A stretch of DNA of 64,000 bases from Planctomycetota bacterium (GTDB lineage: Bacteria > Planctomycetota > UBA1135 > GCA-002686595): the NCBI GenBank assembly GCA_029259605.1, contig JAJDEV010000039.1:1-64000 (forward strand). Direction: 5' to 3'. The translations under genes and the position numbers were made by a program. The notes below the pieces were generated by a model. The model saw nothing but the letters and a program-made list of their open reading frames with translations. It had not been told where the DNA came from and searched no databases. This document shows positions 458-8,294 of this stretch, one piece after another. The first letter of the stretch is position 1. Each line of letters begins with the position of its first letter.

Positions 458-1708
458 ATGAAGACGCTCGTCACCCTGGCCCTGGCCCTCTTGTTCGGAA
501 CGTCCTGGTTCGGCGCGCGGTCCGTGCGCGGCGACGTGGAATGGGAGACGAACCTCGACGAGGCGTTCGTGGCCGCCGGCGAGTCCGGCCGCCCGCTCTT
601 GATCGTCTTTCGATGAGAGGCCTGAAAGGACTGCACGTCCTTCGCTGAGCAGGTTGCTCGGCCCTCAGCTCCGCTCGCCCGGCTCTACTCGGAGTTCGTC
701 TGCGTCTACGTGACGGACATGCGCGGCGTCGACCTCGGGCGCACGCCCTTCGATTTCGACCTGACGTTCGCCGCGTTGCTCATGCATCCGGACGGGCACG
801 TCTATCATCGCTATGGAGCACGCGACGCGCGGAGCGCCGACCGCTGGCTCGACGAGGCGTCGTTCGCCGACACGCTGCGCGCCGCGCTCGACGCCCACGA
901 CGCGTACGGACTCGACCCGCATCCGCCCGCGCCCCGGCCGCGCCGCGTGATCGAGGAGATCCCCGCGTTCAGGAAGCGCGACAAGGGCCAGTGCATCCAT
1001 TGCCACAGCGTGTTCCCGGCGTTCTATGAGGAAGCGCGCGACGCGGGGGCGTGGACCGAGGACGCGCGCTGGGTCTACCCGCCGCCGAGCCGCATCGGGC
1101 TCGATCTCGCGCGCGACGACCAGACGCGCATCACGCGCGTCGCCGCGGGTTCGAGTGCGTCGGCCGCGGGGCTCGTCGCGGGCGATCGGCTGCTGCGCGT
1201 GGGAGACGCGGCGGTCCGCACCGTCAGCGATCTGTCCCAGGCGCTGCACGACGCGTCGCCCGCCGCGCAAGGGTTGCGCGTCGCGTTCGAGCGCGGGGGC
1301 GAGGAGCGGACCGTGTCGCTCGCGCTCGCCGACGGTTGGAAGCGGGGAACGCCGCGCGAGTTCGCGTGGCGTCCGTTCAAGTGGGGCTTCACGCCCGCGC
1401 CGGGATTCGGCGGCACGGCGCTGACCGATGCCGAGCGCGCCGCGGCCGGCATCGCGCTCGACGCCTTCGCGGTTCGCGTCACCTACCTCGTGACCTGGGG
1501 CGACAACGCGCGCTACGGCCGCGCCGCGGCGAGCGTCGGCCTGCGCGAGGGCGACGTCTTGCTCGCCGCAGACGGCAAACGCGACTTCGACAGCGAGGCG
1601 CACTTCCATGCCTGGTGGCGCCTGACCCGCAAGCCGGGCGACACGGTGCCGGTCGAGGTGCGCCGCGGGGAAGCGACGCTGACGCTCGAAATCACCGTAC
1701 TGCCGTAG
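458..1708 (+). CDS. Trx-like/PDZ selenoprotein with two selenocysteines (UxxU)
   Basis: A 416-residue exported protein is obtained if two in-frame UGA codons, at 614-616 and 623-625, are read as selenocysteine. They fall at residues 53 and 56 in the context VFR-U-E-A-U-K-D-C, where thioredoxin-like relatives carry CxxC. Order: signal peptide (about 1-22, MKTLVTLALALLF), thioredoxin-like domain (about 25-150), a c-type heme motif CIHCH at 179-183, a PDZ domain (about 210-290) and a second PDZ-like domain to the C-terminus. The frame is otherwise open on both sides of the UGAs with uniform coding character, which argues against a pseudogene. A hairpin just after the second UGA resembles a bacterial SECIS. 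I recall a family annotated as Trx7/PDZ domain-containing (seleno)protein in planctomycetes, which fits. Probable role: periplasmic thiol/selenol redox chemistry. An ATG at 446 is an alternative start. The 3' end overlaps the convergent SGNH gene by 17 bp. Confidence 0.82.
626..642 (+). promoter_or_regulatory. SECIS-like hairpin for selenocysteine insertion
   Basis: AAGGAC (626-631) pairs perfectly with GTCCTT (637-642) around the loop TGCAC, whose second base is G. The loop begins 15 nt after the first UGA, close to the spacing and the loop-G expected of bacterial SECIS elements, and 6 nt after the second UGA. CCTG (621-624) could extend the stem with CAGG (650-653) across an internal loop. 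The stem is read by eye; SelB binding is inferred. Confidence 0.5.
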
Positions 1709-2687
1709 GCCAAGGCAGCGTTCCGAGCGCGCGGCCGATCTCCGCGCCGAGCAGGGCCTGTCCCGCGGGGGTCATGTGGCAGAGGTCGGTGAAGAACTCG
1801 GAGGTGTGCGGGATCGCGTCGCGCACGTTCGCGAGCGGGAGGTCGAACTCGGTGGCGAGGCGCTCGATGACCGCGTTGTGGCGCGCGACCGCGCGGAGCG
1901 TCGACGGGACGCCGCCCCAGAAGTGCCGCATCAGCTCTTCTTCGCGGGCAACGCGCGCGATCAGCTCGCGGTCCGTGGTCGGTTGCGAGACGGCGAACGT
2001 CGAGAGGACGACGCGAAAGCCGTGCTCGCGACCGAGGGCCACGATCTCGCGCAGGTGACTCTCGAGCATGGCTTCGCTGCGGAACGGCGGCTCGCCGAAG
2101 TCGGACCCGGCGCGGAAGCGCTTGTCGAGGAAGTGGTACTTGACGAGCGTCGCGAAGAGCGAGGCGTCCTTCGCGCGCCAGTCGAAGTAGCCGACGTCGG
2201 GGAGGGGACCGGTGAACGGGAAGGCGTTGTAGATCGCGTCGTTGATGCCGAGGTAGCACACGACGACGTCCGGCTCGTACGCGAGCAGGTTCTTCCGCAG
2301 GTTGACCAGGTTGTTGTACGAGGTGTAGCGCGGGCGTCCGCAGGTCACGACCGTCAGGTCGGCGTCCGGATTGCGCTCGCGCACGGCCGCGTCGACGGCG
2401 GTCGCGTAGGTGGGCGAGTACGACGTCGATCCGCCGAGCAGGAAGACACGCGTCTCGCCCTCGCGCTTCGGCGTCGCGACGTCCGGCCCGATCGCGCCGA
2501 TGTCGTTGAGCTCGACGTTCCAGAGCGTCGCGTGGGGCCGCGCGGTGAAGATCAGATCGTCGTCGAACGCGAGCCCCGGGGGCGTGCTGCGATACGTGAT
2601 GACGCGCGCGGTGATCTCGAGCACGACCAGGCCCGCGAGGAGCGTCGCGCCGATCACGATGAGTTTCGTCTTGAGGCGCTTGGCCAT
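1692..2687 (-). CDS. SGNH/GDSL-type hydrolase, membrane-anchored
   Basis: 331 residues starting at the ATG at 2687 (MAKRLKTK); an in-frame ATG at 2729 is possible. A single N-terminal hydrophobic helix (about 9-25) suggests a membrane anchor or signal. SGNH blocks are visible: GGSTSY with the likely nucleophile Ser87 (block I), GINDA in the middle (block III) and TDLCHMTPAG near the C-terminus with the Asp-x-x-His pair (block V). The family contains esterases, lipases and carbohydrate O-acyl hydrolases; the substrate is unknown. The gene faces the selenoprotein gene, and the two stops overlap by 17 bp. It diverges from the O-antigen-ligase-like gene across 140 bp, which probably holds both promoters. 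Confidence 0.8.
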   Translation of the reverse strand: MAKRLKTKLIVIGATLLAGLVVLEITARVITYRSTPPGLAFDDDLIFTARPHATLWNVELNDIGAIGPDVATPKREGETRVFLLGGSTSYSPTYATAVDAAVRERNPDADLTVVTCGRPRYTSYNNLVNLRKNLLAYEPDVVVCYLGINDAIYNAFPFTGPLPDVGYFDWRAKDASLFATLVKYHFLDKRFRAGSDFGEPPFRSEAMLESHLREIVALGREHGFRVVLSTFAVSQPTTDRELIARVAREEELMRHFWGGVPSTLRAVARHNAVIERLATEFDLPLANVRDAIPHTSEFFTDLCHMTPAGQALLGAEIGRALGTLPWPTAVR

Positions 2688-2827
2688 GCGGCGACCCGAC
2701 GGCACGGAGGTCGCGTCGCTTCGAATCATAGGCAGCGGACGCGACGGATCCACATGCGCGCGCGGGTCGCGCGGTTTGCGCGGCTCGCGCGTGCCTTTCG
2801 CCGCCGCGCTCGGCAGGCTGGCCGGCG

Positions 2828-4093
2828 ATGTCCACGACGACGAGCGAAGCGACCCTCGGTCACTCCGGCGCCCGCGCCGTGACGCGGGGTGGTCGCGCGC
2901 TCTCGCTCGCGAGCGCGACCTTCGCGGCGGCGTTCCTCGCGCCCCTCTTCCTGCCGGCCAAGGCCTGCACCGTGGTCTACCTCGCGTTCGCGATCCCGCT
3001 CGTGATCCGGCACGGCGTCGTCGTCCGTCGCGACCTGTGGCGGTTGCTCTCGCCGCTCTTCGTGCTCTTCGCGCTCGGCCTGCTGGTCGACTACGGCAGC
3101 GTCGAGTGGCGCGAGTTTGCCAAGGACCTGTGGCGTCTGAGCAAGCCGATCGTGCTGCTCTACGTCGGGTACATCGCCGCGCGCACGAGCACGCGGCGCG
3201 ACGCGTTCCCGCAGGGCCTGATGGTCGTGGGGCTGGCCTACGCATCGATCTATCTGGTGCGGCTCGCGTTCGAGTCCGCGGCGCGCGGCGTCATGCCGCT
3301 CGACCTCGCGGACACGGTCGTGTTCGGGCACTTCCCCGAGGCGTTCACCGTGGGCCTCTGCCTGCGCTACCGGCGGATCGAGGTGCGCGGCGGCGCGCTG
3401 CTGCGCAACACGGCGCTGGGCGTCTCGCTGCTCGCGCTCGGGCTCTCCGGTTCGCGCACCTGGGTGCTCGTCGCCGGTGTGATGATCCTCGCCGGTGGCT
3501 CGTGGTTGCGCGGGCGCGGACGGTTGCGCGCGGTGTTGCTCGTGGGAGCGATGGCCGTCGGACTCTTCCTGACGCCGCTCGGTGAGGCGATCTTCAAGCG
3601 CGGCTTCGACGTCGCGCTGTCGGAGATCTCGCCGGCGCGTTACACGGAGCTCGGCGACATCGCGACGCACTGGCGCGGCTTCGAAGCGTGGCAGGGGTTG
3701 CGCGCGTACCTCGACGGCTCGGCGCTCCAGCACGCGATCGGACAGGGCTTCGGCGCGACGGCGGGACTCGGGTTCTACATCGAGCACGACGGCGACCACT
3801 ACAACCGCGTCAGTCAGTTCCACAACGGCTTCATCTGGCCGCTGCTCAAGACGGGCTTCGTCGGCGCCGCGGTATTCGTCGTGTGGTTCGGGCGCTTGAT
3901 CGGGATGAGCCGCGCGCTCGGCCGCGCTTCCGCGAGCCCCGAGAATCGAGCGGCGGCGGACCTGTGCCTCGGCGTCGTTCTGTCGCTCGTGCTGACGACG
4001 CTCGTCGTTTCCGGCATCTTCAACAACGTGTCCAACGATCCGATGGTGCTCGTGATCGGGGGCTTCCTGGCGTTGACGCACCGCCGGGGCTGA
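2828..4093 (+). CDS. O-antigen ligase/polymerase-like membrane protein
   Basis: 421 residues with about ten hydrophobic segments. The region around residues 275-345 (HWRGFEAWQGL, then FGATAGLGF, HYNRVSQFHNGF) has the arginine/tryptophan and late His-Asn-Gly-Phe arrangement of the large periplasmic loop in Wzy/WaaL-type O-antigen polymerases and ligases. The role would be polymerisation or transfer of an undecaprenyl-linked glycan at the outer face of the inner membrane. The neighbours (SGNH hydrolase, polytopic protein) suit a surface-glycan context, but no glycosyltransferase is adjacent. Family assignment is moderate; ligase versus polymerase cannot be told from sequence. Confidence 0.6.
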   Translation: MSTTTSEATLGHSGARAVTRGGRALSLASATFAAAFLAPLFLPAKACTVVYLAFAIPLVIRHGVVVRRDLWRLLSPLFVLFALGLLVDYGSVEWREFAKDLWRLSKPIVLLYVGYIAARTSTRRDAFPQGLMVVGLAYASIYLVRLAFESAARGVMPLDLADTVVFGHFPEAFTVGLCLRYRRIEVRGGALLRNTALGVSLLALGLSGSRTWVLVAGVMILAGGSWLRGRGRLRAVLLVGAMAVGLFLTPLGEAIFKRGFDVALSEISPARYTELGDIATHWRGFEAWQGLRAYLDGSALQHAIGQGFGATAGLGFYIEHDGDHYNRVSQFHNGFIWPLLKTGFVGAAVFVVWFGRLIGMSRALGRASASPENRAAADLCLGVVLSLVLTTLVVSGIFNNVSNDPMVLVIGGFLALTHRRG

Positions 4094-5498: not shown

Positions 5499-8294
5499 AT
5501 GCTGACGAAGCGCGCCCCTGTGGATGGTGGATATGGCATCGGGATTCTGATCCTCGTGGTCGGAATCGCGATCGGCGCACTCGTCGACATTCCGTCCTTC
5601 GGTGCGCGCGCCGACGCGGCGTCACCGCACGGCGCGCCGCCCATGGGCGAGCTCAGCCCGATTCTGCGCCCGGCGGACGAACCCGAAGCGGTCGCGGAAA
5701 ACGGGCTCGAGACGCTGCGTTTCACGATCGACCGCGAAGCGTCGGAGACGCTGCAGCGCGTGCGCGATCGCGGGATGGCGCGCGGGATCATCGTGCAGAC
5801 GGAGGAGGACACGGTGCCTGCCGTCGTCGAGCACGGCGCCACGCGCGCCGACGCCGACATCCGCATCAAGGGCGACTGGACCGATCACATCGCGACCGAG
5901 AAGTGGTCGCTGCGCGTCAAACTCCAGGACGAGCGCCTGTTCGGTATGCGCGTGTTCTCGATCCAGCGTGCGAAGGCGCGCGGGTTCCTGTGGGAGTGGT
6001 TCGTGCTCGAGGCCTTCCGCCGCGAGGGCGTGCTCGCGCCGCGCTCGACGTTCGTGAACGTCGTCATCAACGACAACTACGCCGGCGTCTACTTCCTCGA
6101 GGAGCACCCGGCGAAGGAGCTGCTCGAGTCGCAGGGCAGGCGCGAGGGTGCGATCGTCCTGTGGGACGAACAGGCGCGCTGGGACACGCTGCTCCAGTCC
6201 CACGACGTCTACTCGAAGGACGTGCGCCTTCCGGTTCCCGCGAGCGCTCAGCCGAGCCTCGGGATGGTCCCGCCGTTCGTACGCGCCTACGGCGAGAAGC
6301 GGCTCGAGTCGTCGGAGGCGTTGACGCGCTCGTACTACGCGGCGGTCGAAGAAATGCGCGCGCTGCGGAATCACGTGCTGCTCGCGGATGACGCGACGGC
6401 GCGGATGAAGCGGCTGCAGGCGTTGCACGAGCTCGAGGGCGCGACGATCGACTCCATCGTCGACGTCGAGCGCGTCGCCATCGCGCACGCCGTCGCGTCG
6501 CTGTTCCAGATCCAGCACGCGCTCTACTGGCAGAACCTGCGCTTCTACCACGACCCGGTGCTCGACCGGCTCGAGCCGATCGCGTTCGACAACATGGCCC
6601 AGGAGGCGTCGGCCCGCGACCCGGTGATGTTCCGGCGCAATCGCGCGATGCCACCGTTCGAGCAGAGCGCCACCTACTACAACGGCGTCTTCCGACACCT
6701 CGGTCGCCTCTGCGATCCCACTTGGCTCGAGGCCTTCTTCGCCGACATCCTGCCGGACGCCGAGCGCTTCGAAGCGGCGCTGCTCGCGGATGACGACATC
6801 CCCGCGCCGTTCGCGCTCGCCGCGATGCTGCAACGCGTGCGGACGCAGCAGGGCTATCTGCGCAACGTCATCTTCCCGACCGACCCCGTCAGCTTCGCGG
6901 CCAGCTACGAGGTCGAGGAGGACGCGAGCGCACGCGTGACGGGCTCGATGGAGGTCGTCGCGTGGGGGACCACGCGCACGCCGGTCGTCGTCGAGGGCTT
7001 TCGCTTCAGCGACGGCTCGCTGCGCTCGGCCGCTTCGGTACTCGGAGCGGGGGACGACGCGCTCGGCGCGATCCGTACGGAGGAGGGCCACGTCATCCTC
7101 CCGAACGACGGACGCTCGGTCGCGTTCCGCTTCCCCGTGCACGACCGCCTCGCCAACCTCGAAAACGTCGGGCACGTGATCCGCGCGGTCAAGGAGCAGT
7201 CGCGCGCCTCGCGCAAGCTCGACCTGGACGTCGAAGTGCTCTTTCGCCCGATCGCGGCCAGTGCGCCGACGGGCGAGCGGCTCGCGTTCCAGAAGCGCGA
7301 CGACGCGTGGCCGTCCGAGGGCGGCCGCCCGCCGACGCCGACGCTGGCCGAGGCGCTCGCGCGCCATCCGTTCCTCGAGTATCGCGCGGAGGAGGGACGG
7401 CTCGTGATCCGCCAGGGTGAATGGGAGGTCGCCGGCGACCTCGTCGTTCCGGACGGCGTCACGCTGCACGCGTTCGGCCCCGTGACCCTGCGTTTCGAGC
7501 AGGACGCGTGCCTCGTGTCGAGCTCGCCGCTCGTCTTCGAAGGCAACTGGGAGACGCCCATCGTGCTCGAACCCGTCGCGGGAAGCGATCGCTGGAGCGG
7601 CGTCGTCGTCGTGCGCGCGAGCGGACGCTCGACGTGGGAGCACGTGCGCGTGCGGAACACGCAGGCGATCGCGCGCAAGGGGTGGGTGACGACCGGGGGC
7701 ATCACGTTCTATCGCTCTCCGGTCACGATGAGGCGCTGCTTCATCGAGGGCACGCTCGCCGAGGACGGCACGAACATCTTCGGCGCCGACATGTTGCTCG
7801 AGCGCGTGACGTTCTCGGGTTGCGCGTCGGACAGCTTCGACGGCGACTTCGTTTCGGGCCAGGTCGTCGAGTGCACGTTCAAGGACGGACAGGCGGACGG
7901 CGTCGACTTCAGCGGGAGCGACGTGGACGTCATCGACTGCACGTTCATCGACCTCATGGACAAGGCCATCTCGGCCGGCGAACGCAGCGTCGTGCGCGTG
8001 CGCGGCGGATTGGCGCAGGACGTCTCGATCGGGATCGCGTCGAAGGACGGGTCGCGCGTCCACGCGGAAGGGATGACGATTCGGCGCGCGAAGAACTACG
8101 CGCTGGCCGCTTTCGTCAAGAAGTCCGAGTACGGTCCCGCGATCCTCGAGTGCGTGGGACTCGAGCTCGATCAGGCGCGCCTCGGCAAAGCGATCGTTCA
8201 GGACGGAAGCGTCGTGTCGCTCGACGGGGTCGCGCAGCCGACGCAGGCGCTCGATGTGGGCCGGCTCTACGCGGACAAGGTTCTCGGGCGTTGA
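5499..8294 (+). CDS. CotH-family protein fused to a right-handed beta-helix
   Basis: 931 residues. An N-terminal hydrophobic segment (IGILILVVGIAIGALV) directs export or anchoring. Residues about 70-430 carry the CotH pattern: DIRIKGDWTDH with KWSLRVKL, then WEWFVLEAFRREGVLAPRS and NDNYAGVYFLEEH. CotH of Bacillus is an atypical secreted protein kinase; planctomycete members are generally uncharacterised. The C-terminal third (about 640-930) has short repeating turns of the type found in parallel beta-helices, such as VRVRNTQ, CFIEGTL, CTFKDGQ and CTFIDLM, possibly for carbohydrate or surface binding. The next gene follows after 27 bp, so the two are likely cotranscribed. There is no clear Shine-Dalgarno sequence before the chosen ATG. 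Confidence 0.75.
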   Translation: MLTKRAPVDGGYGIGILILVVGIAIGALVDIPSFGARADAASPHGAPPMGELSPILRPADEPEAVAENGLETLRFTIDREASETLQRVRDRGMARGIIVQTEEDTVPAVVEHGATRADADIRIKGDWTDHIATEKWSLRVKLQDERLFGMRVFSIQRAKARGFLWEWFVLEAFRREGVLAPRSTFVNVVINDNYAGVYFLEEHPAKELLESQGRREGAIVLWDEQARWDTLLQSHDVYSKDVRLPVPASAQPSLGMVPPFVRAYGEKRLESSEALTRSYYAAVEEMRALRNHVLLADDATARMKRLQALHELEGATIDSIVDVERVAIAHAVASLFQIQHALYWQNLRFYHDPVLDRLEPIAFDNMAQEASARDPVMFRRNRAMPPFEQSATYYNGVFRHLGRLCDPTWLEAFFADILPDAERFEAALLADDDIPAPFALAAMLQRVRTQQGYLRNVIFPTDPVSFAASYEVEEDASARVTGSMEVVAWGTTRTPVVVEGFRFSDGSLRSAASVLGAGDDALGAIRTEEGHVILPNDGRSVAFRFPVHDRLANLENVGHVIRAVKEQSRASRKLDLDVEVLFRPIAASAPTGERLAFQKRDDAWPSEGGRPPTPTLAEALARHPFLEYRAEEGRLVIRQGEWEVAGDLVVPDGVTLHAFGPVTLRFEQDACLVSSSPLVFEGNWETPIVLEPVAGSDRWSGVVVVRASGRSTWEHVRVRNTQAIARKGWVTTGGITFYRSPVTMRRCFIEGTLAEDGTNIFGADMLLERVTFSGCASDSFDGDFVSGQVVECTFKDGQADGVDFSGSDVDVIDCTFIDLMDKAISAGERSVVRVRGGLAQDVSIGIASKDGSRVHAEGMTIRRAKNYALAAFVKKSEYGPAILECVGLELDQARLGKAIVQDGSVVSLDGVAQPTQALDVGRLYADKVLGR

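Follow-up and report, generated by a model that had tools for sequence, protein, structure and literature searches.

The gene at positions 458-1708 on the forward strand of the window (the whole 64,000-nucleotide stretch of Planctomycetota DNA that was analyzed) contains two in-frame UGA codons, UGA1 and UGA2, that occupy cysteine-equivalent sites in the UxxU redox motif of a thioredoxin-PDZ protein. Computational comparison showed that both UGAs are Cys-equivalent sites, that the genome contains selenocysteine (Sec) machinery, and that of two adjacent RNA hairpins the first (H1) tracks UGA1 and the second (H2) tracks the use of Sec. The best overall explanation, which we favor by a modest margin, is that the gene encodes an exported UxxU oxidoreductase in which H2 is the SECIS of UGA2 and H1 serves UGA1.

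The gene, its domains and the possible role of its product

The frame begins with an ATG at 458, contains in-frame UGA codons at 614-616 and 623-625 that are nine bases apart, continues for 360 codons downstream of the second UGA and ends with a stop codon at 1706-1708. The redox site is predicted to read U53-E-A-U56-K-D-C59. The features of the gene are as follows.

458..1708, + strand: coding sequence of a putative double-selenocysteine Trx7/PDZ protein, 416 aa with UGA 614 and UGA 623 read as Sec
458..535, + strand: probable N-terminal signal peptide (MKTLVTLALALLFGTSWFGA...), from the translation read by eye
539..712, + strand: Thioredoxin_7 domain, residues 28-85 (Pfam PF13899, 32.7 bits, cut-off 27)
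614..616, + strand: first putative Sec codon, UGA (U53); UGA in 79 of 161 family members and Cys in the other 82
623..625, + strand: second putative Sec codon, UGA (U56); UGA in 121 of 161 members and Cys in the other 40
632..634, + strand: third redox-site Cys codon, C59 (UxxUxxC); Cys in 150 of 161 members, overlapping the H1 loop
992..1006, + strand: CxxCH motif C179-I-H-C-H183, a possible c-type heme or metal site, invariant in the family
1094..1327, + strand: first PDZ domain, residues 213-290 (Pfam PF13180; Foldseek matches to the RseP PDZ tandem and to DegQ)
1500..1705, + strand: second, C-terminal PDZ domain, about residues 348-416 (second PDZ_2 stretch, DegS PDZ match and structure model)

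A Pfam scan of the product gave PDZ_2 at 60.1 bits in two stretches. The DegS PDZ match covers residues 356-414, and modeled strands and helices extend over residues 339-413. The AlphaFold model was built from only three input sequences and has a mean pLDDT of 61, so that it is usable for domain boundaries only. It places a β-strand at residues 47-52 and an α-helix at 60-67 around the redox motif, and AGR2 was among the Foldseek matches for this domain, in keeping with a Thioredoxin_7/AGR2-like fold at low confidence. When solved structures were searched by sequence, the PDZ domain of DegQ was the sole match. By both sequence and Foldseek, the PDZ pair is like the tandems of DegP/DegQ and RseP; unlike those proteins, this one has no protease domain.

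A preliminary description of the gene, made from sequence alone, had claimed two in-frame UGAs nine bases apart with 360 codons following, a UxxU at the CxxC position of a thioredoxin-like fold, and two PDZ-like domains. All three claims held, on re-reading of the frame, from the Thioredoxin_7 match together with Cys at both sites in homologues, and from the two PDZ_2 stretches. It had also claimed export to the periplasm and a c-type heme motif. Export is inferred and is supported only by the resemblance of the N-terminus, read by eye, to a Sec-type signal peptide. The heme motif is present in every family member long enough to include it, with the two Cys and the final His invariant (157/157) and H181 found in 155/157. 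Attachment of heme is an inference from this motif only.

The CxHCH site could possibly hold heme c, and heme binding is untested; the extra, near-invariant His (155/157) would also suit a metal site. The genome encodes a cytochrome c assembly protein (PF01578, 110 bits), and no cytochrome Pfam domain matched the 458-1708 protein. H147, which was considered as a distal heme ligand, is conserved in only 87% of members, and the CxxCH region is unreliable in the AlphaFold model. The site is not mentioned in the relevant sections of papers on this family. The magnetosome proteins MamE and MamP have an architecture of PDZ domains with a CxxCH magnetochrome. The 458-1708 protein likewise has PDZ beside CxxCH and gave weak, PDZ-only matches to the MamE and MamP profiles; however, the scores were far below cut-off (25 vs 800 and 19 vs 300) and it has a thioredoxin domain and Sec codons instead.

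The protein combines a thioredoxin-like UxxUxxC site with CxHCH and a PDZ pair; once exported, it would act in the periplasm as a selenol/diselenide-disulfide oxidoreductase and hold client proteins by its PDZ tandem. This is the most likely role, inferred without an identified substrate. An all-against-all comparison of 40 loci found no conserved gene neighborhood, the only fixed recurrences being the family itself and overlapping frames. There is therefore no evidence for an operon and no neighborhood support for the proposed role. Near the gene, the window contains a zinc-ribbon-like frame (CxxxC...CKSCG) at 2-370 on the reverse strand that is truncated by the start of the contig, resembles the N-terminus of an insertion-sequence transposase and has no Pfam match. 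Also present are a GDSL-like lipase/hydrolase at 1692-2690 (reverse strand), a weak O-antigen ligase (Wzy_C) match at 2828-4093 (forward) and a CotH kinase with a β-helix at 5499-8294 (forward), none with an apparent link to 458-1708.

Family membership, motif census and Sec machinery

The protein matched the NCBIfam model NF041199, 'Trx7/PDZ domain-containing (seleno)protein', at 362.1 bits (cut-off 300) over residues 28-413 of 416. Eight other members were scanned with this model; seven passed the cut-off and one CxxC copy scored 294. A member of the family was seen in the GOS survey as a 'putative secreted serine protease MucD' with CxxU (PMC2398784), and this MucD-like protein from a marine metagenome is likely the earliest sighting of NF041199. 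Two reviews give the family as CxxU (PMC9312934, PMC13188914), with one Sec in PMC13188914, and a 2021 survey noted CxxC/U plus PDZ (PMC9402790). The 458-1708 protein shares the published Trx7 plus PDZ architecture, with both Pfam domains above cut-off, and the Sec/Cys site. It differs in having UxxU with two UGAs, hence two predicted Sec, and two hairpins. Membership stands despite this mismatch, CxxU being the description given in reviews and not the model's own criterion. We found no description of UxxU in this family in the open-access literature searched; most subscription literature lay outside the search. The observation of the preliminary description was confirmed and its interpretation supported, in a family already catalogued as NF041199; what is new is UxxU with two predicted Sec and the tandem hairpins at the RNA level.

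Other UxxU selenoproteins (Prx-like UxxU, the NF041115 metal-binding proteins and ferredoxin-thioredoxin reductase) likewise have two Sec in a redox motif, but they belong to unrelated families, and in the present protein the motif comes joined to PDZ domains and a CxxCH. Animal SelL is also a UxxU selenoprotein. No second hairpin is described for other UxxU selenoproteins in the relevant sections of the literature searched. As a second UxxU test family, NF041115 was sought in 392 genomes without a match above cut-off, and the loci that we read contained no heavy-metal domain with UxxU.

Three overlapping genome sets from the phylum (199, 392 and 154 genomes) were searched and yielded 161 distinct Planctomycetota members, comprising 79 with UxxU, 42 with CxxU, 40 with CxxC and none with UxxC. 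Three genes whose motif is preceded by another residue (two UxxU, one CxxU) were left out. Cys was the only alternative to UGA at either site. Both UGAs are kept at the identical two codons in relatives at 38-55% identity, which rejects chance UGAs, and the 79 two-UGA genes are spread over many families of the phylum. When the motif region was left out of tree building, UxxU required a minimum of 22 changes, CxxU 19 and CxxC 4; therefore, the first Sec codon has been gained and lost many times. The absence of UxxC among the 161 members, although CxxU is common, marks the C-terminal motif position as the primary Sec site on comparative grounds. The thioredoxin-fold entries of a review table are mostly UxxC (PMC13188914). 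One genome carries a UxxU and a CxxU member in the same orientation, 4.7 kb apart (locus L209, G196:C255).

The preliminary description had proposed searching for Sec machinery, aligning homologues and predicting a SECIS. Profile matches in the source genome were above cut-off for selA (495.9 bits), selB (343.7 bits, including the C-terminal part) and selD (314.4 bits). tRNA-Sec scored 75.6 bits against a gathering score of 47 and was also called, as tRNA-SeC, by ARAGORN. Absence of the machinery is thus refuted. The alignments of homologues extend across both positions, and Cys takes the place of the first UGA (CxxU) or of both (CxxC). Among 60 family-carrying genomes, 59 had a selA match, 56 of them above the curated cut-off. 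The sole 99%-complete genome of the co-occurrence set without selA and tRNA-Sec above cut-off (G177) gave no more than a trivial 19.6-bit match to selA, and its family copy is CxxC. In the source genome, selD (C263:155-1099) has one internal UGA and is a Sec protein too (CAG-U). A hairpin with a CAGGU apex lies 34 nt downstream of that UGA and has the same apical motif as H2. The tRNA-Sec gene (C263:3482-3575) is about 2.4 kb from selD.

Tandem hairpins and selection at the RNA level

Bacterial Sec decoding requires a hairpin right behind each UGA. The published bSECIS model calls for a loop 16-37 nt from the UGA, 3-9 nt in the loop, 4-16 bp in the stem and a G in the first two loop positions (PMC13188914). 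Two hairpins follow the UGAs.

626..642, + strand: hairpin H1, 6-bp stem 626-631/637-642, loop UGCAC at 632-636, loop start +16 from UGA1
644..662, + strand: hairpin H2, putative SECIS, 8-bp stem 644-651/655-662, loop GGU at 652-654, loop start +27 from UGA2

The earlier claim of one SECIS-like stem was therefore an understatement. SECIS prediction found that both hairpins meet the published rule, H1 for UGA1 (6 bp, UGCAC, +16) and H2 for UGA2 (8 bp, GGU, +27). The H1 loop is only +7 from UGA2 and the H2 loop is +36 from UGA1, so that H1 fits UGA1 alone and H2 formally fits both UGAs. Both conform to the bSECIS of E. coli fdhF type; the difference is that two adjacent hairpins serve, by this prediction, two UGAs 9 nt apart, the first hairpin starting directly after UGA2. 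The two lie side by side in UxxU genes. H2 has an AGGU apical motif. The H1 loop is UGC-like without AGGU, and its G is supplied by the conserved C59 codon. Rfam gave nothing at the gathering threshold over the window.

We compared the hairpin stability of each gene with that of synonymous recodings of itself that used its own codon usage. For H1 the mean z was -1.88 in UxxU genes (Wilcoxon 8e-14), 0.03 in CxxU genes and -0.17 in CxxC genes; for H2 the corresponding values were -2.82, -1.94 and -0.28. These computations show selection on synonymous codons for H2 in UxxU and CxxU genes, not CxxC genes, and for H1 in UxxU genes only. The restriction of H1 to UxxU genes was also seen in a smaller initial set of genes. 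A sliding profile had two minima in UxxU genes, exactly at H1 and H2, one in CxxU genes with no dip at H1, and none at these places in CxxC genes. Scanning for a bSECIS with at least 5 bp and a loop +16 to +22 from site 1 found one in 47/79 UxxU genes vs 14.6 expected, 8/42 CxxU genes vs 6.4 and 1/40 CxxC genes vs 1.2. With a 4-bp criterion, H1 met the model for UGA1 in 62 of the 79 UxxU genes, and 61 of the 62 had the loop at +16 or +17; the near hairpin was absent from the remaining 17, which weighs against the model proposed below.

Pair 648-658 of H2 is variable and takes all four Watson-Crick types, and the H2 loop shows codon bias, with Leu as TTG in 43/45 cases (about 8% gene-wide) and Val as GTT in 50/74 (about 9% gene-wide). 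Pair 630-638 of H1 alternates between A-U and C-G. Because the register of H1 shifts between genes, as does its loop, fixed-register covariation is weaker for H1 than for H2. The claim for H1 therefore rests on the codon-shuffle and independent-pair tests.

To control for relatedness, we compared UxxU with CxxU genes in 11 phylogenetically independent pairs, restricted to well-supported branches, and scored H1 as present at z <= -1. On average, H1 went with UxxU in 7.7 of the 11 pairs and was opposed to it in 0.1 (median sign-test p 0.008, range 0.002-0.22). The direction was unchanged at every threshold tried, and the significance rests on few pairs. This association indicates that H1 accompanies the first Sec codon. 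Taken by itself, the window gene gave no significant H1 signal (p 0.12; dinucleotide z of the region only -1.42), making the H1 claim a comparative one.

Decoding of the two UGA codons and rival explanations

In the model we propose, the SelA/B/C/D system would insert Sec at both UGAs. H2, which follows closely, would be the SelB-binding SECIS for UGA2, an assignment based on its persistence in CxxU genes. H1, between UGA2 and H2, would serve UGA1, most probably as a short SECIS of its own. With UGA1 in the A site, H1 would stand at the mRNA entry; once the ribosome moved three codons to UGA2, H1 would necessarily be melted and H2 would be the sole intact hairpin. The incorporation of Sec at the two codons, the binding of H1 by SelB and this handover are inferred, as is the redox role, and none of these analyses shows Sec in the protein. 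With a UGC-like loop whose G belongs to a conserved Cys codon, H1 has not been shown to be recognized by SelB. A bolder reading, which we consider as likely to be wrong as right, is a sequential relay with one dedicated, head-to-tail SECIS hairpin per UGA, in which H1 is used for UGA1 and destroyed at UGA2, exposing H2; in this reading the relay has been repeatedly gained and lost with the first Sec codon.

The strongest rival, which we judge clearly less likely than the model above but still plausible, is that both UGAs are Sec and H2 is the sole SelB-binding SECIS for both, with H1 as an accessory hairpin. Folded H1 might bring H2 to within about 19 nt of UGA1; alternatively, it might slow the ribosome and make termination at UGA1 less likely. 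In its favor, the H2 loop at +36 from UGA1 is just inside the 16-37 nt limit, of the two hairpins only H2 has the AGGU loop of the selD hairpin, the register and loop of H1 vary between genes, and the G of its loop comes from the Cys codon. Against it, H1 alone fits the bSECIS model for UGA1 at its near-constant spacing in those 62 UxxU genes. An arbitrary spacer hairpin needs no such spacing, though H1 is also constrained by the Cys codon, whose position is fixed. We favor H1 as a dedicated SECIS over an accessory hairpin, a choice that is unresolved.

Two other rivals are very unlikely. If only one UGA were Sec, the other would reflect readthrough by a near-cognate tRNA or a sequencing error. 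Single-Sec CxxU is the published state of the family, but 79 distinct genes spread over many families have both UGAs at identical codons, which rejects sequencing error as the source of the UGAs, Cys is the sole alternative, and a hairpin is linked to UGA1. Lastly, H1 could be a by-product of amino-acid preferences in UxxU proteins (e.g., Ser before Phe), and Ser at u+8 is indeed commoner in UxxU (43/79) than in CxxU (11/42), but we rejected this source since the shuffles with the protein held fixed still separate UxxU (-1.88) from CxxU (0.03) and pair 630-638 switches between A-U and C-G.

UxxU is the commonest form of NF041199 in the Planctomycetota sampled, extending to two predicted Sec a family catalogued with one. 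A single UGA is recoded at 30-40% in E. coli (PMC4513850); at that rate, and if the two events were independent, only about 10-16% of the product would be full length. Two UGAs three codons apart pose a mechanical puzzle, and tandem hairpins would go some way toward explaining how neighboring Sec codons can both be read. Natural UxxU, CxxU and CxxC forms that have interconverted many times, together with a hairpin linked to UGA1, make this puzzle directly testable.
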